The notes below the pieces were generated by a model. That model was given only the letters and a program-made list of their open reading frames with translations. It made no database searches and had not been told where the DNA came from. This document shows, one piece after another, positions 1 through 9,509 of a stretch of 64,000 bases of DNA. Both the position numbers and the translations under genes were made by a program. The stretch is from Rhodanobacter sp. L36 (GTDB taxonomy: Bacteria > Pseudomonadota > Gammaproteobacteria > Xanthomonadales > Rhodanobacteraceae): contig NZ_LMUV01000011.1 in NCBI RefSeq assembly GCF_009765755.1, positions 909,576-973,575 of the forward strand, given 5' to 3'. Numbering within the stretch: the first letter of the stretch is position 1; every line of letters begins with the position of its first letter.

Positions 1-2
1 GT

Positions 3-2723
3 TGGGTCGTTCAAGACACCAAGCAGGCCAATCTTGGTGCCGCGTCGGGTGTTGCGGTGCGCGAGTACCCCACTGATAGCGGCCCAGCCGATTACCTCCT
101 TTTTGTGGATCGCCAGCCACTCGGCGTCATCGAGGCGAAGCGCGATGAGGCCGGCGAGAATCTCACCTTCCACGAGGCCCAGACCGAGCGTTACGCCAGC
201 GCCAAACTCAAATGGCGCAAGGACAGTCCGCCGCTGCGTTTCCTGTACGAGAGCACCGGACAAATCATCCACTTCACCGATGGTGGCGATCCGCGCCCGC
301 GTGCCCGCGAAGTGTTCCAGTTCTTCCAGCCGCAGACGCTGGCCATGTGGGCGACGCAACCGGATACCCTGCATGGCCGCTTGGCTGAGCATATGCCGCC
401 ACTGCCCACGCAAAATCTCCGCGAGTGCCAGATCAGCGCTGTCACAGGCTTGGAAAAATCGCTCGCGATGGCCAAGCCGCGAGCGCTGATCCACATGGCG
501 ACGGGTGCCGGCAAGACGTTTACCGCAATCACATCGGTGTACCGCCTGCTGAAATTCGCCGGAGCCAAACGCATCCTGTTTCTGGTCGATACGCGCAACC
601 TGGGCAAGCAAGCGCATCAGGAGTTCATGGCCTACTCGCCGCCGGACGACGGTCGCAAATTCACCGAGTTGTACAACGTGCAGCGCCTATCCAGCAGTCG
701 CATCGACCCGCACGCGCAGGTGTGCATCTGCACTATCCAACGCATGTACTCGATCCTAAGTGGCGAGGAGATCGACGAATCAGCCGAAGACATTTCAGCC
801 GGCGAGGTGCCACAAGTGGGTGCCGGCAAGCTGGTGCGCTATAACCCGGCCGTGCCAGTCGAGGAATTCGATTTCATCGTCATCGACGAGTGTCATCGCA
901 GCATCTACAACCTTTGGAAACAGGTGCTGGATTACTTCGACGCGTTTTTGATCGGCCTCACCGCCACGCCGGACAACCGCACCTACGGTTTCTTCAAGGG
1001 CAACGTCGTGGCGGAGTACAGCTATGAACAGTCGGTGGTCGATGGCGTCAACGTGATGTACGACGTCTACGAGATCGAAACCGAGATCACCCGCGCGGGT
1101 GCCGAGCTGAAGGCAAAGGAATGGGTGGATCACCGCGAGCGTCAAACTCGCGCCAAGCGCTGGGCCGAGATTGAGGACGACACCACCTACAGCGGCAGAG
1201 AGCTGGACCGCTCGGTAGTCAACCCCGACCAGATTCGCCAAGTCATTCGTGCCATGAAAGCCGCCGTAGAAGGCACCATCTACCCCAACCGCAAGGAAGT
1301 GCCCAAGACGCTGATCTTTGCCAAGACTGATAGCCACGCCGACGACATCATCAAAGAAGTGCGCGAGGTCTACGGTGAAGGCAATGCATTCTGCAAGAAG
1401 GTCACGTACAAGGCCGACGAGGACCCGGACACCATCCTGTCCAACTTCCGCAATGAGTACTACCCGCGCATTGCCGTCACCGTGGACATGATCGCCACCG
1501 GTACCGATGTAAAGCCGCTGGAAGTATTGCTGTTCATGCGCGACGTGCGCAGCCGCGGTTACTACGAACAGATGAAGGGTCGCGGCGTGCGCAGCCTTGA
1601 TGGCGAATCATTGAAGAAGGTGAGCAACAGTGCAGACGGTGCCAAGACGCACTTCGTGCTCATCGATGCGGTCGGCGTGGAGAAGTCGTTGAAGACTGAA
1701 AGTCGCCCGCTGGAAAAGAAACCGGGCGTGAGTCTCGACAGCCTGCTCAAGGGAATCGCCTTCGGCAACCGCGACGACGACAGCGTGCTCAGCCTCGGCA
1801 GCCGGCTGGTGCGATTGGCGAAGCAACTCGACGACAAGGCGCTCACGCGAATCAAGCAAACCGCGGGTGGTCTCGCGCTCAACGACATCGCTCGTGGACT
1901 GGTCCAAGCGGTCGACCCTGACCGCATTGCCGCCGATGCACTGGAAACAGCAAAGACCGCAGGCATCACTCGCAACGCCGAAACGCTCACCATTGATGAA
2001 TTGACCAACGCTCGCCGGCAGCGCGTGAGCGCCGCCTGCAAGCCATTGGATGACAGCAAGCTGCGCGACCTGATCGAATCGGCACGGCGTGAACTTGAGC
2101 AGATCATCGATCACGTCAATCCGGACCAAGTTACCTTCAGCGGCTACAGCGCATTGGCGGAGAGTCAGGCGCAAGCCACCGTGCAGACGTTTGCCGATTA
2201 CCTCAAAACGCACCGCGACGAGATCGCTGCGCTGGATTTTTTCTATCAGCAGCCCTATCAGCGCCGTCCTCTCACGTTCGACATGATCGACAACCTGCAT
2301 GACGTGCTGTCGCGTCCGCCGCTGATGCTCACCACGGAACGGCTGTGGTCGGCCTATGCGCGTGTGCAGGCCAGCAAGGTCAGTGGCGCCAACGTGCGCC
2401 GTCAGCTCACCGACCTTGTTGCGCTGGTGCGTTTCGCACTTGGCATGGATGATGATCTGCGTCCGTTTGCCGACAGCGTGGACAAGCGATTCCAGGCGTG
2501 GATTTTCCGCCACAATGCGCAGCGCGCCACGTCCTTCACCGACGAACAGACTCAGTGGTTGCGATTGATCAAGGATCACATCGCCAGCAGCTGCTCCATC
2601 AGCCGCGAAGATTTCGACTATGCGCAGTTGGCGGACAAGGGCGGCTTGCAGAAGGCGTGGAATGTGTTCGGCGAGCAGCTCGATGGGCTGCTGCTGGAAA
2701 TGAATGAGGAGTTGGTAGCTTGA
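3..2723 (+). CDS. hsdR: Type I restriction enzyme R subunit (HsdR), 5'-truncated by the window
   Basis: This is the motor and nuclease subunit of a type I restriction enzyme. It translocates DNA with ATP and cleaves far from the recognition site. The frame is open to the left edge, and codons from base 3 read like family sequence before the first possible GTG at 57, so the true start lies outside the window and only a few tens of residues seem missing. A PD-(D/E)xK nuclease core (DYLLF then GVIEAK, nt 87-143) precedes a superfamily 2 helicase. That helicase has Walker A (ATGAGKT, nt about 499-519), a DECH box (nt about 886-897), the GLTATP motif III and a GRGVR motif VI. An alpha-helical C-terminal region of the EcoEI type follows. 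The stop overlaps the hsdS start (TTGA, 2720-2723). The EcoAI/EcoEI-like (IB) assignment is inferred from the domain layout. Confidence 0.95.
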   Translation, partial: WVVQDTKQANLGAASGVAVREYPTDSGPADYLLFVDRQPLGVIEAKRDEAGENLTFHEAQTERYASAKLKWRKDSPPLRFLYESTGQIIHFTDGGDPRPRAREVFQFFQPQTLAMWATQPDTLHGRLAEHMPPLPTQNLRECQISAVTGLEKSLAMAKPRALIHMATGAGKTFTAITSVYRLLKFAGAKRILFLVDTRNLGKQAHQEFMAYSPPDDGRKFTELYNVQRLSSSRIDPHAQVCICTIQRMYSILSGEEIDESAEDISAGEVPQVGAGKLVRYNPAVPVEEFDFIVIDECHRSIYNLWKQVLDYFDAFLIGLTATPDNRTYGFFKGNVVAEYSYEQSVVDGVNVMYDVYEIETEITRAGAELKAKEWVDHRERQTRAKRWAEIEDDTTYSGRELDRSVVNPDQIRQVIRAMKAAVEGTIYPNRKEVPKTLIFAKTDSHADDIIKEVREVYGEGNAFCKKVTYKADEDPDTILSNFRNEYYPRIAVTVDMIATGTDVKPLEVLLFMRDVRSRGYYEQMKGRGVRSLDGESLKKVSNSADGAKTHFVLIDAVGVEKSLKTESRPLEKKPGVSLDSLLKGIAFGNRDDDSVLSLGSRLVRLAKQLDDKALTRIKQTAGGLALNDIARGLVQAVDPDRIAADALETAKTAGITRNAETLTIDELTNARRQRVSAACKPLDDSKLRDLIESARRELEQIIDHVNPDQVTFSGYSALAESQAQATVQTFADYLKTHRDEIAALDFFYQQPYQRRPLTFDMIDNLHDVLSRPPLMLTTERLWSAYARVQASKVSGANVRRQLTDLVALVRFALGMDDDLRPFADSVDKRFQAWIFRHNAQRATSFTDEQTQWLRLIKDHIASSCSISREDFDYAQLADKGGLQKAWNVFGEQLDGLLLEMNEELVA

Positions 2724-4480
2724 GTTCCGTTGAAAGCGTTAAGAAGGTTGGCCCGGCAGGCTCATGCCTTGCGTCCATCGGAGACGTGATTGATCAGCGC
2801 ATTTCTCAGTCAGGACCAGATACAGACTTTCTGTACCTCGACATCGGCAGCGTAGACAGAGAGACGAAACAACTGGTCAACCTAAAAACGGTTGCACTTC
2901 AGGAGGCGCCAAGTCGGGCAAAGCAGGTAGTAGCGGAGGCTGACGTGCTGGTTTCTATGACTAGGCCCAATTTGAATGCAGTAGCGATAGTGCCGCATTC
3001 GGCTCAAGGGGCGATCGCATCCACTGGGTTCCACGTGCTTCGCTCGCGGTGGGTTGACACAAAACTCCTTTTCTACCTAGTTCAGACTGACGCATTCGTC
3101 GAAGCCATGTGTGCGGTCGTACAGGGTGCGCTTTACCCAGCCGTTAGACCAAAAGATATTGATGGCTTTGAATTCCACCTCCCGCCTGCCGCCGAACAAA
3201 CCCGTATAGTCGAAAAGCTCGAAGAGCTGCTGTCCGACCTCGATGCCGGCGTGGCCGAGTTGAAGGCAGCGCAGCGTAAGTTGGCGCAGTACCGCCAGTC
3301 GCTGTTGAAGGACGCGACGGAAGGCGCACTCACCGCCGACTGGCGCGCCGCTCGCGCGCAGATCGGCGAGTCGCAGGAAACCGGCACTGAACTGCTGAAA
3401 CACATCCTCACCCAACGCCGCACCCGCTGGGAGGCCAGCCAACTCGCCAACTTCGCCGAGGAAGGCAAGACCCCGCCCAAGGGCTGGCAGGTCAAGTACA
3501 GGGAGCCGGTGGCACCAGATGCAGTCGATCTGCCGTCACTGCCGGACGGATGGGCTTGGGCGAGCGTAGACCAACTCTCATTTGTTGTCCGCGGCGCGTC
3601 GCCTAGGCCGGCGGGAGATCCGCGTTATTTTGGGGGCGCTATTCCCTGGATCACCGTTGGCTCACTCACAGCCGATGAGGGCATGTATCTCGATCAAGTT
3701 GATCAGTTCGTCACGTCTGCCGGAAGGGACGCCAGCAGATATATAGAGCCCGGCACGCTCCTCCTTACAAATAGCGGAGCAACACTTGGTGTACCTAAGA
3801 TCACACGGATCGGTGGTTGCATCAACGACGGCTTGGTCGCGCTTCTTGATGTTTGTGATCCATTCAAAATCTATCTCTACTGGTACCTGCGCACGCAAAC
3901 CAAACGACTGCGCGCGTTGAATCAAGGTGCCGCACAACCGAATCTCAACACCGCTATCGTCAAGAAGATCTGCGTGCCGATCTGCGGTAACGTGGAAATG
4001 GCGCTCATCAATTCTCTCTTGGATGCGACTGTCGAGGCCGTTGAATTACAGAGAGTGTCGATAGAAGGTGGCATCTCCCGATCCAACGCCCAACGCAAAA
4101 ACATCCTGAAGGCCGCATTCGCCGGCCAGCTGGTGCCGCAAGATCCCGGCGACGAACCGGCCAGCGTTCTACTGGAGCGCATCTGCGCCGATCGTGCAAC
4201 GTGGAGGAATCAGCCAAAGGCGCCCAAGATAAAGAAGCAAAAGGAGATCGCTAACGTTATGAGCAAGCTGATTGATGTGCTCGCCGAAGCGGATGATTGG
4301 CTTCGAGCACAGGAAGCATTTCGCCGCTGTGGTGCAGCTGATGGGGCGCAGACTTCGCAGATCGAGCCTCTATACGCAGAACTGCGTGACCTCCATAAAG
4401 CAGGGCGCTTGGAGGTCAAGTCAGAAGAAGATGCTGAAGGCCGAAAGTTAGGAGACCTGCTTAAACTGCGGACAATCTGA
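2720..4480 (+). CDS. hsdS: Type I restriction-modification specificity subunit (HsdS) with C-terminal extension
   Basis: This 586-residue subunit recognises the bipartite DNA target and bridges two HsdM and two HsdR subunits. The start is a TTG overlapping the hsdR stop, which implies translational coupling. Target-recognition domain 1 spans roughly residues 10-150. A conserved coiled-coil spacer follows (about 155-210, rich in E, L, K and Q around EKLEELLSDLDAG). Domain 2 spans about 270-430, and a second conserved helix ends in AAFAGQLVPQDP. About 110 further residues follow this usual HsdS end; they are Lys-rich and then helical, and I do not recognise them. The two recognition domains are visibly less G+C-rich than the conserved spacer, as expected of exchangeable domains. 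The next gene starts 2 nt after the stop. Confidence 0.93.
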   Translation: MSSVESVKKVGPAGSCLASIGDVIDQRISQSGPDTDFLYLDIGSVDRETKQLVNLKTVALQEAPSRAKQVVAEADVLVSMTRPNLNAVAIVPHSAQGAIASTGFHVLRSRWVDTKLLFYLVQTDAFVEAMCAVVQGALYPAVRPKDIDGFEFHLPPAAEQTRIVEKLEELLSDLDAGVAELKAAQRKLAQYRQSLLKDATEGALTADWRAARAQIGESQETGTELLKHILTQRRTRWEASQLANFAEEGKTPPKGWQVKYREPVAPDAVDLPSLPDGWAWASVDQLSFVVRGASPRPAGDPRYFGGAIPWITVGSLTADEGMYLDQVDQFVTSAGRDASRYIEPGTLLLTNSGATLGVPKITRIGGCINDGLVALLDVCDPFKIYLYWYLRTQTKRLRALNQGAAQPNLNTAIVKKICVPICGNVEMALINSLLDATVEAVELQRVSIEGGISRSNAQRKNILKAAFAGQLVPQDPGDEPASVLLERICADRATWRNQPKAPKIKKQKEIANVMSKLIDVLAEADDWLRAQEAFRRCGAADGAQTSQIEPLYAELRDLHKAGRLEVKSEEDAEGRKLGDLLKLRTI

Positions 4481-4482
4481 CG

Positions 4483-6177
4483 ATGAAACTTGACAAGCTC
4501 ACTATAGGAAGCTTGACCGATAGCCCCAAGCATCAGTTCAAGAACCTAAAGAACGTCACCATAGACTTCGACCAAGGCCATTGGGTGACGGTGGTTATCG
4601 GATGGAATGGCACGGGCAAGTCGAACGTGCTTGAGGCGTTGGCCATCATCTTCCGCGACCTAATCGCTGAGCAGCCGATACCAGAGTTCGCGTTCCAACT
4701 CGCTTATCGCATGGGCAGCGGCGACACCACCCTGCACATTCATATTGATGCCGATCCCGATCGTGAAAGCGAGCGTTACATCATTCACGTCGCCACAAAT
4801 GAACAAGTTCAAGAAGCTAAGCGTAATCACGCGGTAGACCATGGGAACTCGGTCGGGAAGCAGCCATTCGGTGAAAAGATCAAACTGAGTGTCTTTCTAA
4901 AAGCTGAGTCCGAGCATCTTCCACGCTACGTCTTTAGCTACTACTCGGGCGAGAGCACGCGTATGCGTGAGATCTTCCTCCCTTATCTGAAGGACTACTA
5001 CGAGGACCTGCTCAAGTCTAAGAAAGATCCGGCACCCAAGCGGTTGTTCTACGCGCTCCCGGTTCATAGTCAATTTGTACTTCTTGCATTCCTTATCAGA
5101 CCCGATCAAATGGTAAAAGACTTCCTTTTTGATCAACTAGGTATCGACCCCGAAGGAGGGGTCGAGTCCGTCTTGTTCGTACTTCGCAAACCACCGTGGA
5201 AGTCTACCGACGGGGACCCCCGCTTCTGGTTTGCACGAGGATTGGTACAGCGATTCTTGGACCGATTGATGCGGGTCGCGCTAGCACCGATCTCAATCAA
5301 ACGAGCTGCGCCAAAGTCTATTTGGAACAAGAACGGGAGCAGGCACGAATACAAATACCTCTACGTGAAGGACATCGACTCGCTGAGAGATCTTGTTGGT
5401 GATCAGAGCCCTAATGAATTCTTTCGCGATTTAGAGAGCACCTACGTATCTGAACTTATCGAGGAAGTTCGAATTCATGTGCGTCTGAACAAAAATGATG
5501 GGAGCGTGACATTTCGGGAATTAAGCGAGGGCGAACAGCAATTGCTCACAGTGCTTGGCTTGTTGCGGTTCACTGCCAAAGAAGAAAGTCTCTTCTTACT
5601 CGATGAGCCGGACACCCATCTCAATCCCCGTTGGTGCGTCAATTTTCTAAGCTATCTGAGTACTTTTGTAGGCCAGAGTGGGGACGCGAAACAGAATAGT
5701 CATATTTTGCTGACTACTCACAATCCACTGGCCATTGCGGAGCTTGAGAAGGAACAAGTCCAGATTCTTTATCGCAATGTTGACACTGGCACTGTGCACG
5801 CCGAGAACCCATCATTAGATCCTAAAGGAATGGGCTTTGCGGGCATCGTGACAAGTGACATGTTTGGTCTTGGCTCGAGTCTGGACAAAGCAACTAATGA
5901 CGAGTTGCTCGAACTGCATGAACTATCTACAAAGAAGCAGACATCGCTAGATGAAACTGATCGAGCTCGGCTCGTAGAAATTCGTGAGCGTTTGGAAGGG
6001 CTGGACTTTAATTTCGCATCCCGCGATCGACTGGAACAAGAATATTTGAGGGCAAGATTCGACCTGGCGGCGGATGATCCGTTTGATGAAGCGATTCTTA
6101 CGCCCGAAAATAAGCAAAAGGCCCTTGACGCCTTAGTGCTTAGCCTTCTTGGAAATTTGCGGGAGCGGGAACGTTGA
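4483..6177 (+). CDS. ABC-type AAA family ATPase, PtuA-like (Septu), embedded in hsd operon
   Basis: This 564-residue protein belongs to the SMC/RecF/OLD-like ATPases of defence systems. Walker A GWNGTGKS is at residues 40-47. An ABC signature (LSEGEQQ, about 347-353) precedes Walker B LLDEPDTHL with D374 and E375. The switch histidine in TTHNP is H413. There is no TOPRIM domain, so it is not a classical OLD nuclease. The C-terminal 110 residues are charged and helical. Base composition is clearly lower in G+C than flanking hsdM. The next gene encodes an HNH nuclease and overlaps its stop by 4 nt. An ATPase followed by a TIGR02646-like HNH partner is the PtuA-PtuB arrangement of Septu and of some retron effectors. 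No reverse transcriptase or retron RNA is visible here. Partnership with the HNH protein is inferred. A RloC/PrrC-like anticodon nuclease is less likely because the nuclease is a separate HNH protein. Confidence 0.85.
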   Translation: MKLDKLTIGSLTDSPKHQFKNLKNVTIDFDQGHWVTVVIGWNGTGKSNVLEALAIIFRDLIAEQPIPEFAFQLAYRMGSGDTTLHIHIDADPDRESERYIIHVATNEQVQEAKRNHAVDHGNSVGKQPFGEKIKLSVFLKAESEHLPRYVFSYYSGESTRMREIFLPYLKDYYEDLLKSKKDPAPKRLFYALPVHSQFVLLAFLIRPDQMVKDFLFDQLGIDPEGGVESVLFVLRKPPWKSTDGDPRFWFARGLVQRFLDRLMRVALAPISIKRAAPKSIWNKNGSRHEYKYLYVKDIDSLRDLVGDQSPNEFFRDLESTYVSELIEEVRIHVRLNKNDGSVTFRELSEGEQQLLTVLGLLRFTAKEESLFLLDEPDTHLNPRWCVNFLSYLSTFVGQSGDAKQNSHILLTTHNPLAIAELEKEQVQILYRNVDTGTVHAENPSLDPKGMGFAGIVTSDMFGLGSSLDKATNDELLELHELSTKKQTSLDETDRARLVEIRERLEGLDFNFASRDRLEQEYLRARFDLAADDPFDEAILTPENKQKALDALVLSLLGNLRERER

Positions 6178-6968
6178 GACTTATTGCTATTCCACTACCG
6201 CCAAATCTACCAGTAAGGTGGACAAAAATTCATACAAAAAGGGTTGCAGCCTTAGGCGCAATGACCACACAAAAGCAGCGATCAAGCTATCTGAAGAAAC
6301 ACGGTAGTTGGGGACGACTCAAGAAATGGCTATCGAATGCCAGCGGATACAAGTGTTGGTATTGCGAAGCAAAAAGCACACGCGCCTCGTTCGACGTCGA
6401 CCACTTTCGACCCAAGCTTGGGGTTACAGTAAACGGCGTCCTTTTAGAGGGGCATGCGGGTTACTACTGGCTTGCCTACGAATGGTCGAATTTTCGTCTT
6501 GCTTGCCAACGGTGCAATCGTCCAGAGAACAGCGAAACAGACAATTTGCACGGCAAGGCCAACGAATTCCCAATTCAAGATGAAGCTCACCGATGCAAGA
6601 GTTCAGCGGGGCTTCTTGCCTCCGAGTTACCCAAGCTATTGGACCCTTGTCTGCAGGCGGACTGTGCCTTGTTGGCGGACGGCATTGATGGAGAGGTGAA
6701 GCCTGCAGCCTCGATTGGCACTTGGGAGTTCGAACGCGCGAAATACACGATCGAGCGCCTTGGTTTTAATGAGTGGAATACGCCGGAGAGCAAGCGAAGT
6801 GCGTGGCAAACACTAGCTCTTTTGATTGCCGCTGTTGGGATGAACACCAATCAAGATGTCATTGATGAGCTAAAAAAGTACCTTTCTAACGATCACGAGT
6901 ACTCAAGTTTCTATCGGTCGGCTATTGGCACGCACCGAGACAAAGCTTGGGTGGAGGCTCTTCTGTGA
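6174..6968 (+). CDS. HNH endonuclease, PtuB-like (Septu effector), embedded in hsd operon
   Basis: This 264-residue protein carries an HNH/TIGR02646-type zinc-finger nuclease. It starts with TTG inside the stop of the ATPase gene (TTGA overlap), so the two are probably made together. Zinc-binding pairs C61-W-Y-C64 and C111-x-x-C114 frame the core. The catalytic-looking D76-H77 lies in DVDHFRPK, followed by YYWLAYEW, N106 and CxxCN. These match PtuB-type nucleases, which act with an ATPase partner on nucleic acid. The C-terminal 100 residues are not recognised. Its stop overlaps the hsdM GTG start (GTGA, 6965-6968). A nuclease gene locked between hsdS and hsdM suggests either joint regulation with the restriction enzyme or a second line of defence. 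The sequence does not show what activates it. Confidence 0.87.
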   Translation: MRLIAIPLPPNLPVRWTKIHTKRVAALGAMTTQKQRSSYLKKHGSWGRLKKWLSNASGYKCWYCEAKSTRASFDVDHFRPKLGVTVNGVLLEGHAGYYWLAYEWSNFRLACQRCNRPENSETDNLHGKANEFPIQDEAHRCKSSAGLLASELPKLLDPCLQADCALLADGIDGEVKPAASIGTWEFERAKYTIERLGFNEWNTPESKRSAWQTLALLIAAVGMNTNQDVIDELKKYLSNDHEYSSFYRSAIGTHRDKAWVEALL

Positions 6969-8437
6969 ACTCAAGCGTCCTTGTCCAGAAGCTCTGGAAT
7001 TTCTGCAATACCTTGCGCGACGACGGCGTGGGTTATGGCGACTATCTGGAACAGCTGACCTACCTGCTGTTCCTGAAGCTGGCGCACGAGTACGCGCAGC
7101 CTCCGCACAGCCGCGACACGCACGTTCCACGCAGCTGCGACTGGAACAGCCTGAAGGCCAAGACCGGCGAGCCGCTGGAAGCGCACTACCTGACCGTATT
7201 GCGCAAGCTCGGCGAGGAGCCGGGCATGCTAGGCGCGATCTTCTTCAAGGCGCAGAACAAGATCCAGGACCCGGCCAAGCTGGCGCGTCTGGTGCAGATG
7301 ATTGATGCGGAAAACTGGCTGAGCCTGGAGACCGACGTCAAGGGCGACCTGTACGAAGGCTTGCTGCAGAAGAATGCCGAGGACACCAAGAGCGGCGCCG
7401 GCCAGTACTTCACCCCGCGCGCGCTGATCCAGGCGATGGTGGAGTGCGTGCAGCCGGAGCCGATGAAAACAGTGGCCGATCCCGCATGCGGTACTGGCGG
7501 CTTCTTTCTTGGCGTGCACGAGTGGCTGACCCGCGACGGCGTCACCTTGAACAAAGCGCAGGCGAAGTTCCTGCGGCATGAGGCCTTCTACGGCAATGAA
7601 ATTGTCGCCAGCACGCGCCGCATGTGCCTGATGAATCTGTTCCTGCACAACATCGGCGAGCTCGACGGCGCGCCCACGGTGGATCGCGCCGACGCTCTGA
7701 TCAGCGAGCCCATAAAAACCTTCGATTACGTGCTGGCCAACCCGCCCTTCGGCAAGAAGAGCAGCATGACCATCACCAACGAAGACGGCGAGGACAACCG
7801 CGACGCACTGACCTACGAGCGTCAAGACTTCTGGCAGACCACGTCCAATAAGCAGCTCAACTTCCTGCAGCACATCGTCGCGATGCTCAAGACGACTGGC
7901 CAGGCTGCGGTAGTGCTTCCCGACAACGTGCTGTTCGAAGGCGGCGCCGGCGAAAAGATTAGGCGCAAGCTGCTGGAAACCTGTGACGTGCACACCCTGC
8001 TGCGCCTTCCCACCGGCATTTTCTACGCGCAAGGCGTGAAGGCGAACGTGGTGTTCTTCGATGCCAAACCGAAAGACGGCAAGGTGCACACCAAGGGTGT
8101 GTGGATCTATGACCTGCGTACCAATAAACACTTCACTCTGAAAACTCGCACGCTGAAGCGTGACGATCTGCAGGACTTCATCGATTGCTACCGGCCCGCC
8201 AATCGAAACAAGCGCAAGGAGTCGGAGCGATTCAAATATTTCGACTACAAAACACTGACCGCCCGCGACAAAGCCAGCCTCGACATCTTCTGGCTCAAAG
8301 ACGACAGCCTCGACAATCTCGATGACTTGCCTCCACCGGATGTATTGGCGCAGGAGATCGTCGACCATTTGGAAGCTGCACTCGCTTCGTTCCGAGATGT
8401 CGCTGCTGCGCTACCCCGGTCTGCAGAAATAGAATGA
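6965..8437 (+). CDS. hsdM: Type I restriction-modification DNA methyltransferase subunit (HsdM)
   Basis: This N6-adenine methyltransferase of 490 residues, with HsdS, protects host sites and is required for restriction. The AdoMet-binding motif I is DPACGTGG beginning at D172. Catalytic motif IV is NPPF at N259-F262. A helical HsdM N-terminal domain (about 1-140) precedes them, and length fits type IB HsdM. I chose GTG 6965, which overlaps the ptuB-like stop, over an in-frame TTG 18 nt upstream that lies inside the upstream gene. Being last in the operon, after R, S and two effector-like genes, is unusual, since most type I loci encode M before or next to S. A separate downstream gene starts 41 nt after the stop. 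Confidence 0.95.
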   Translation: MNSSVLVQKLWNFCNTLRDDGVGYGDYLEQLTYLLFLKLAHEYAQPPHSRDTHVPRSCDWNSLKAKTGEPLEAHYLTVLRKLGEEPGMLGAIFFKAQNKIQDPAKLARLVQMIDAENWLSLETDVKGDLYEGLLQKNAEDTKSGAGQYFTPRALIQAMVECVQPEPMKTVADPACGTGGFFLGVHEWLTRDGVTLNKAQAKFLRHEAFYGNEIVASTRRMCLMNLFLHNIGELDGAPTVDRADALISEPIKTFDYVLANPPFGKKSSMTITNEDGEDNRDALTYERQDFWQTTSNKQLNFLQHIVAMLKTTGQAAVVLPDNVLFEGGAGEKIRRKLLETCDVHTLLRLPTGIFYAQGVKANVVFFDAKPKDGKVHTKGVWIYDLRTNKHFTLKTRTLKRDDLQDFIDCYRPANRNKRKESERFKYFDYKTLTARDKASLDIFWLKDDSLDNLDDLPPPDVLAQEIVDHLEAALASFRDVAAALPRSAEIE

Positions 8438-8478
8438 AATGATTTTTCGAAAACCGTCAGCGACGAAGGGTGCCGAGC

Positions 8479-9509
8479 ATGAGTGATATCCAGCTTTTTC
8501 AGCTTGACGCGGGTAAGGCCAGCGAGTTGAAGGGTTATGCGTCCGATCTAGAAAGACCGCTGCAGACGCTGATCGAAATCAATCTGGATACCCTGCTTGG
8601 CATTCGCTTCCTCGCCAGCGAATACTCCACTGGCAAGACTCACGGCGGTCGCATCGATTCGCTAGGACTGGATGAAAACCATTGCCCGGTAATCCTGGAA
8701 TACAAACGCTCCACTGGTGAGAACGTGATCAACCAGGGCTTGTATTATCTCGACTGGCTGATGGATCACCAAGCTGAGTTCAAGCTTCTGGTGATGAAAC
8801 ATCTTGGCGATATTGCGGCGGATCTGATTGACTGGAGCGCTCCACGCTTGGTCTGCATCGCTGCGGATTTCACCCGCTACGACGGTCACGCTGTGCAGCA
8901 AATCAGCAGGAATATCGAGTTAGTCCGCTACCGTCGTTTTGGCGATGCGTTGCTGTTGCTTGAACTTGTCAACGCAAGCAGCAGTCCGACGAAAGCCGCA
9001 GCCAGACCAACAAAAACGGCTGCCCCTCCTCCTACCACCGGCGTTGCTTCAGTCAAGAGCGGAGGCGATAAAAGTTACGCCGAGTGGTTGATCAGCCTGC
9101 CGCCGAACTTAAAAGATCTGTTGACGTCCATGGAGGATCACATCGGTTCACTGGGCGATGATGTGCAGCGAAATGAGCTGAAGCTATATGTAGCCTTCAG
9201 CGCTTGAAAAATTTCGCCACGATAGTGCCGCAGAAAAGTCGATTGCTACTCTTTCTCCATCTGAACCCAGACAAGCTCGCTCCGCTTCCATCTAACGCAC
9301 GTGATGCGCGAACGTTCGGTCATTGGGGTACGGGTGATCTAGAACTTGCCATAGCTACTTCGGCTGATTTCGACGCAATCAAAGCGTTGATCCTCGATGC
9401 CTATGAGGGACGTAGCTCCTCACTCTTACATCGCATACTTCCTACTGCGCCGGCTGCCCGTTCGAAGCCGACACGCCGCCATCGACGGCGACCATCGCGC
9501 CGGTCATGA
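8479..9509 (+). pseudogene. NucS/DUF5655-type predicted nuclease, broken by a one-base frameshift
   Basis: The gene starts at ATG 8479 with GAAGGG 8 nt upstream and reads 242 codons to a stop at 9205-9207. The first part resembles RecB/NucS-like nuclease domains: a basic and acidic core with GRIDSLGLDENH and VILEYKRS (D...ExK), near residues 60-80. A low-complexity Ala/Thr/Pro linker follows, then the beginning of a DUF5655 domain ending KLYVAF. The rest of that domain (LKNFATIV, LLLFLHLNPDKL, GHWGTGDLEL, AYEG) continues in another frame from 9204 to about 9410. Adding one base near 9199 restores a continuous protein. After AYEG the frame has no early stop and runs into the 3' end of the convergent SDR gene, so the native end also seems lost. 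Such genes are often neighbours of type I systems. A sequencing error is the simplest alternative to a true mutation. Confidence 0.75.

Follow-up and report, generated by a model that had tools for sequence, protein, structure and literature searches.

A PtuAB-like ATPase-nuclease pair in a Rhodanobacter hsd operon and its linkage to HsdS proteins with a C-terminal tail

A stretch of 64,000 nucleotides from Rhodanobacter sp. L36 (NCBI RefSeq assembly GCF_009765755.1, contig NZ_LMUV01000011.1, positions 909,576 to 973,575 of the forward strand), hereafter the window, opens with the operon hsdR-hsdS-ptuA-ptuB-hsdM, five genes in this order on the + strand, all with open reading frames (ORFs), in which an ATPase-HNH nuclease pair resembling PtuA and PtuB of the Septu defence system is nested among the genes of a type I restriction-modification (RM) enzyme. 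HsdR, HsdM, and HsdS are all encoded within the one operon, as expected of type I RM. The start of hsdR lies 55 nt before the start of the window, and the complete gene (925 aa) is found at L002:9522-12299. The parts of the operon are as follows.

1..2723, + strand: hsdR minus its first 55 nt (ResIII, 2.4e-35; EcoEI_R_C, 8.7e-39)
2720..4213, + strand: recognition core of hsdS, with two Methylase_S stretches (1e-14) and a TTG start overlapping the hsdR stop
4214..4480, + strand: predicted winged-helix tail at the C-terminus of HsdS, linker included, particular to HsdS linked to PtuAB
4483..6177, + strand: ptuA-like ABC/AAA_21 ATPase of 564 aa, with Walker A, LSEGEQQ signature, and Walker B
6174..6968, + strand: ptuB-like HNH nuclease of 264 aa, with DHFRPK and C..CN motifs and a TTG start overlapping the ptuA stop
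6965..8437, + strand: hsdM of 490 aa (N6_Mtase, 5.9e-69), with DPACGTGG and NPPF motifs and a GTG start overlapping the ptuB stop

The genes are tightly joined: hsdR and hsdS overlap by TTGA (2720-2723), the hsdS stop codon TGA (4478-4480) is followed by a 2-nt spacer and the ATG of ptuA at 4483, ptuA and ptuB overlap by TTGA (6174-6177), and ptuB and hsdM overlap by GTGA (6965-6968). Direct reading of the sequence confirms the order and junctions given in the first-pass annotation of this DNA, and supports its proposal that the pair is co-translated with the type I RM operon.

The ATPase matched PtuA of PADLOC over nearly its full length (1.4e-223), the HNH protein matched PtuB of PADLOC (2.4e-58), and the same three PADLOC PtuA models matched all 26 PtuA rows scanned. 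The curated cut-offs of NCBIfam were missed by both proteins: the best match of the ATPase, TIGR04435 ('restriction system-associated AAA family ATPase', 5.7e-46), reached 157.4 of 300 bits, with six relatives scoring 104.6-146.7 bits against the same cut-off; the match of the HNH protein to TIGR02646 (1.7e-10) reached 41.1 of 52.15 bits; and NF041760 and NF041761 gave 48.6 of 500 and 29.8 of 150 bits, respectively. The best solved matches of the predicted PtuA structure (mean pLDDT 77.9) are PtuA chains of type I-A retrons and Septu, with TM-scores that are low (0.27-0.46 among the 50 matches listed, AriA and Rad50 chains also being present), and the top matches of the PtuB profile are retron PtuB. 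In the family of loci described below, the Walker A motif and the signature are each kept in 83 of 85 loci, Walker B in 85 of 85, and DHxxPK in 82 of 85, the loci that miss a motif being L003, L034, L037, L066, L072, and L077. The PADLOC profiles and the motifs thus bear out the earlier description of the pair as PtuA/PtuB-like, but the NCBIfam cut-offs do not. The locus possesses a PtuA homologue with intact ATPase motifs and an adjacent PtuB HNH homologue with its catalytic motif, but Septu is a stand-alone two-gene locus, whereas this pair lies in an hsd operon and, in all 83 readable relatives, beside hsdS; it is therefore classed as part of a composite system, in which it forms a Septu-like module, and not as plain Septu. 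Some copies look decayed: hsdR, hsdS, ptuB, and hsdM are fragmented in L052, and L066 and L072 each have a split ptuA, L072 having a split hsdM as well.

Scanning 84,980 species genomes yielded 454 relatives, of which the best 80 were retained, so that more distant PtuA are under-sampled. The retained relatives span Proteobacteria, Bacteroidota, Cyanobacteria, Myxococcota, Chloroflexi, and other groups. A plasmid search gave five records, in all of which an annotated hsdS adjoins the ATPase gene. Among the 86 annotated loci (L003-L088), hsdS was readable in 83, the remaining three being cut by contig ends, and in every one of the 83 ptuA follows it directly, at a distance of -71 to +142 nt (at most +25 nt in 82 of them). 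This adjacency, recurring in all readable loci, is not due to chance. The position of hsdM takes two forms, either after ptuB (R-S-A-B-M) or before hsdS (M-S-A-B). The insertion is thus not unique to one assembly, but the view that the pair was inserted, as an exception, into a complete RM enzyme is not supported, hsdS linkage being universal among readable loci and hsdR being missing from 26 well-flanked loci of the 86. No PtuA was found in phage records at 1e-20; viral contigs supplied seven relatives, two of which (L149 and L150) appear to be one and the same locus. On the Pseudoalteromonas plasmid NZ_CP032092.1 (L004), a gene with a TnsA domain (145-438) is located ~0.7 kb before hsdM of an hsdM-hsdS-ptuA-ptuB locus, which possibly has a Tn7-like carrier. 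In L039, 15788-16378 and a neighbouring hsdM-like ORF on the minus strand form a second, tail-less hsdM-hsdS piece, convergent with the S-A-B-M locus.

The G+C content of the window is 0.48-0.52 across 4501-7000, compared with 0.53-0.63 in the surroundings. This drop had been taken to suggest separate acquisition of the pair; the drop is real, but ptuA has a lower G+C content than hsdM in 64 of the 79 family loci, including that of Rhodanobacter (mean difference -0.031), and because the trend is family-wide the low G+C argues only weakly for a separate recent arrival and was rejected as proof of one.

HsdS proteins encoded beside PtuAB are longer (median 575 aa, n=80) than those of related operons without PtuAB (473 aa, n=21), and the difference corresponds to a C-terminal domain of ~85 residues. 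A profile of this tail matched all 83 readable PtuAB-linked HsdS; since it had been trained on these same proteins, the test was repeated with training and test sets apart, and tail profiles built from either architecture recognised 34 of 35 and 40 of 40 PtuAB-linked HsdS of the other, but none of the 21 HsdS without PtuAB. The latter are those that exceed 350 aa and are not cut by a contig end. The loci obtained with HsdM as bait came from 20 of 25 genomes other than that of Rhodanobacter sp. L36 and from 7 of 19 plasmid records (two of the 19 being the PtuAB plasmids L006 and L007 of the main set), and five of these 27 loci have no readable hsdS; L129 contributes the first of two HsdS pieces, neither of which has the tail. 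When 398 genomes of the phylum were sampled regardless of PtuA, the tail was matched in three and PtuA in the same three (the Rhodanobacter genome and, apparently, those of L066 and L071), an agreement that is clean but small. Two tails used as queries against plasmids retrieved zero and two records, both of the two carrying PtuAB. Four of the viral-contig relatives, with 38-71% PtuA identity (two apparently being the same locus), have tailed HsdS. The PtuA of L153 and L154 (33-38% identity) adjoin long HsdS (644-665 aa) whose C-termini resemble a diverged tail by eye, one of two tail profiles matching L153 weakly and neither matching L154, and a relative with 26% PtuA identity has an HsdS without a tail.

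The structure of the tail was modelled as a winged helix, with near-invariant positions L23, G40, and E51. Its fold matches to ZBP1-type, PadR, MarR, and kleisin domains tie, so that the likeness to a kleisin is only suggestive. The tail was rejected as a known Pfam domain (best E 0.0018, no family matching more than 4 of 28 tails) and as a known PDB sequence (best E 0.012, unrelated chains).

Among 75 loci, including that of Rhodanobacter, in which all four genes are long and uncut, PtuA identity over 1400 cross-architecture pairs correlated at 0.86 with that of the tail, 0.59 with PtuB, 0.20 with the HsdS core, and -0.22 with HsdM. The best values in 999 permutations within architectures were 0.27 for the tail, 0.18 for PtuB, and 0.20 for the HsdS core, none of which reaches the observed value, so the core also follows PtuA slightly; for HsdM, 983 of the 999 permutations reached the observed correlation. 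With the most distant rows left out, the values became 0.84, 0.58, 0.19, and -0.16, respectively. In a tree of 105 HsdM (like the PtuA tree below, a quick tree with long-branch warnings), at least 16 changes of PtuAB status and at least 15 of tail status are required, and the two change together in eight of eight independent pairs on supported branches (sign test, 0.008). One allelic pair, L067 and L120, exhibits such an exchange directly: their HsdR are 93% and their HsdM 95% identical, and their DNA is also alike upstream of hsdR, but within hsdS the similarity is lost in the second half (L067 6857-7332), comes back for 206 nt, ends 297 nt before the end of the gene in L067 and 54 nt before it in L120, and resumes at hsdM. 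Between these breakpoints L067 has the tail, ptuA, and ptuB, and L120 has a DUF4917 gene, which places the boundary of the exchange inside hsdS, near the junction of core and tail. By these sequence comparisons, the tail goes with PtuAB and not with the hsd backbone, and the mobile character that had been attributed to the pair is upheld in the form of a tail-ptuA-ptuB block exchanged between hsd operons. The tail could conceivably be a DNA-binding winged helix that widens target recognition by HsdS and has nothing to do with PtuAB, as the DNA-binding PadR/MarR and ZBP1-type winged helices among its fold matches would allow, but this is very improbable, given that it varies with PtuA, scarcely with the HsdS core, and not with HsdM, and that it is missing from 21 of 21 related HsdS without PtuAB.

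The place between hsdS and hsdM is occupied by other genes in HsdM relatives that lack PtuAB, namely those encoding Schlafen AlbA_2 (L118), DUF4917 (L120), HEPN (L127), TIR (L128), GmrSD (L138), RES-domain (L124), and Mrr_cat (L129) proteins, and a DUF4357 protein with a GIY-YIG match below cut-off (L141); genes without a name or unscanned are found there in L117, L121, L126, and L140, and the slot is empty in L130 and L139. PrrC170, in the order HsdR, HsdS, PrrC, HsdM, occupies the same slot (PMC11555353; sources given by PMC number are drawn on in excerpt). The tail is found in none of the 21 HsdS of the loci without PtuAB, those with other cargos in the slot included. The hsdS-hsdM slot of R-S-X-M operons appears to serve for cargo and would merit a systematic survey. 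With so many unrelated genes in this slot, and with a cassette that moves between hsd backbones, tail-ptuA-ptuB might be passive mobile cargo that relies on the hsd operon for its expression and for addiction, its tail a mere in-frame join without functional contact. Such an explanation is improbable: the tail has a predicted fold and near-invariant residues and was present in 83 of 83 loci, and other cargos occupy the slot without any tail.

HsdR is optional in this family. Its gene was found in 45 of the 86 loci, but not in 26 that have at least 5 kb of flanking sequence on each side, nor in 15 with shorter flanks, and so HsdR is not present throughout the group, as it would be in a family of type I RM systems. 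A tree of PtuA was built from 79 rows, including that of Rhodanobacter, after exclusion of loci in which an uncut PtuA of 400 aa or an uncut HsdS was lacking; the HsdR label was usable for 69 rows. On this tree HsdR was gained or lost at least 16 times, and hsdM switched position at least 6 times. A profile of the group's HsdR, at 1e-15, matched in 5 of the 24 genomes and neither of the two plasmid records whose loci lack hsdR, and 14 of the 26 contain a protein matched by Pfam HSDR_N; none of these proteins could be placed inside the examined flanks judging from contig positions and the ORF list. By both searches HsdR went undetected genome-wide in 10 of the 24 genomes and in both plasmid records. 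No hidden HsdR was recognised by eye among unassigned flanking ORFs of at least 500 aa, and one DExH motif among the flanking ORFs belongs to a spurious-looking ORF of L030. The possibility that loci without hsdR contain an inactive methylase was rejected, since HsdM has its SAM-binding motif in 80 of 82 cases (the exceptions being a split gene in L072 and a DPACGTCG variant in L077) and NPP[FY] in 82 of 82, with or without HsdR. Because these motifs are kept while HsdR is missing, loci that combine PtuAB with an active-looking methylase but lack HsdR constitute a natural form that recurs.

The first-pass annotation had compared the pair to PrrC, as a second layer of defence that fires when HsdR/S/M is inhibited; PtuAB would then be silent while bound to an intact RM enzyme and fire only once that enzyme has been inhibited by a phage protein, for example Ocr. 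The identical slot of PrrC170 (PMC11555353) agrees with this comparison, as do the toxin and nuclease families of the other occupants (TIR, HEPN, RES, Schlafen, GmrSD) and the naming of PrrC and PARIS as RM guardians in a review (PMC12707154), and a tether between HsdS and PtuAB would serve a guard equally well. However, 26 well-flanked loci lack HsdR, and in 10 of the 24 genomes among them it went undetected genome-wide; a restriction enzyme of this kind is therefore often not there to be guarded, and the guard would have to watch the methylase alone. The second layer cannot in general need HsdR, and a guard that depends on inhibition of restriction is unlikely as a general rule; a guard that watches the methylase is possible. 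As a whole, the PrrC-like explanation is rather doubtful.

We favour the interpretation that PtuAB is physically tethered to the HsdM-HsdS methyltransferase and gated by it, which is somewhat probable, and with similar confidence we consider the HsdS tail to be the tether. The C-terminal winged helix would dock on PtuA, and HsdMS would hold PtuAB and signal it to fire, as the complex of reverse transcriptase (RT) and msDNA does in type I-A retrons; in retrons, RT, ncRNA, and RT-DNA keep the effector sequestered before the trigger arrives (PMC12548924). The likeliest trigger would be engagement of unmodified invader DNA by HsdMS or capture of HsdMS by a phage anti-restriction protein: given a tether, recognition of unmodified DNA has about an even chance of being the trigger, and inhibition of the methylase is plausible at slightly lower confidence. 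Once triggered, PtuB would cut nucleic acid, either DNA or tRNA; PtuAB of retron-Eco7 degrades tRNA-Tyr, and PtuAB had earlier been reported to degrade DNA (PMC11555353). HsdR would be an optional second arm, present in Rhodanobacter and absent from many relatives. More tentatively, HsdM-HsdS and PtuAB may constitute a complete defence system, a 'methylase-gated Septu' in which HsdS has acquired a kleisin-like winged-helix arm that joins the PtuAB effector to it, instead of or next to the HsdR translocase; the reading of self and non-self by sequence-specific methylation would fire a nuclease of a different class, and the tail-ptuA-ptuB cassette may spread by grafting onto any hsdS that it encounters.

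Several known systems resemble this locus in part. Septu (ptuA-ptuB, a Doron system) has the same ATPase and HNH pair, matched nearly full length by the PADLOC models, but here the pair never stands alone in 83 readable loci and is always directly 3' of a tailed hsdS. Type I-A retrons (Ec78/Eco7, consisting of RT-msDNA and PtuAB) also place a PtuAB effector under a dedicated partner, and their chains are the best matches of the PtuA model and the PtuB profile; however, no RT is encoded among the five genes of the operon (the rest of the genome was not searched), the partner would be HsdMS, and the NCBIfam cut-offs for retron PtuA and PtuB are missed. PrrC is likewise an ABC ATPase effector within an hsd operon, in the case of PrrC170 in the identical S-X-M slot (PMC11555353), but is a single anticodon nuclease, whereas here there are two proteins with a separate HNH nuclease, an optional HsdR, and, as a possible further difference, an HsdS tail. 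Defence genes also lie between hsd genes in the rptR-hsd-darTG2 island of EPEC (PMC12255303) and in the R-linked ORFs of C. jejuni, such as RloF (PMC4619093), although in these the slot is between hsdS and hsdR and, in the excerpts, no matching change of HsdS is described. TIGR04435 comprises ABC ATPases associated with RM genes, but its cut-off is missed here. The methylation-associated defence system (MADS) combines RM-like genes with an ATPase, and PADLOC mad2, mad5, and mad3 matched HsdM (5e-59), HsdS (7.2e-28), and PtuA (4.7e-20), far behind MTase_I (5.1e-197), Specificity_I (2.7e-82), and PtuA (1.4e-223), respectively; NCBIfam MAD2, MAD3, and MAD5 are far below cut-off, the comparison with MADS covering these three genes.

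Defence genes nested in hsd operons are already known (PMC12255303, PMC4619093, PMC12707154, in excerpt), and for the coupling of ABC ATPases with various nucleases in RM-like systems PMC12839542 credits Krishnan et al. 2020 and one further reference. A literature search of titles and the starts of abstracts, in which Krishnan et al. 2020 was not covered, recognised neither an HsdS tail tied to PtuAB nor an HsdR-less hsdMS-ptuAB. Within that scope, the coupling of ABC ATPases to RM is in print and no report of the HsdS tail was found.

Downstream of the operon, 3' of hsdM, the window contains a NucS-like gene (8470-9509; PADLOC candidate PDC-S18, 3.7e-109). It encodes 245 aa, compared with 315-317 aa for its relatives in L149 and L012, and an overlapping ORF (9204-9509) resembles the C-terminus of these relatives by eye, the gene apparently being split by a frame change.

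To our knowledge, most cases of guest defence genes nested in host operons rest on gene order, and how such embedded genes communicate with the host RM system is the question that this family addresses. A discrete, deletable domain of HsdS marks the proposed contact, natural variants without HsdR separate a guard of restriction from an effector of the methylase, and the natural swap between L067 and L120 reveals the unit of exchange. These observations suggest a general effector role for PtuAB under control modules that can be exchanged, which would be the RT-msDNA of a retron in one case and HsdMS in another.

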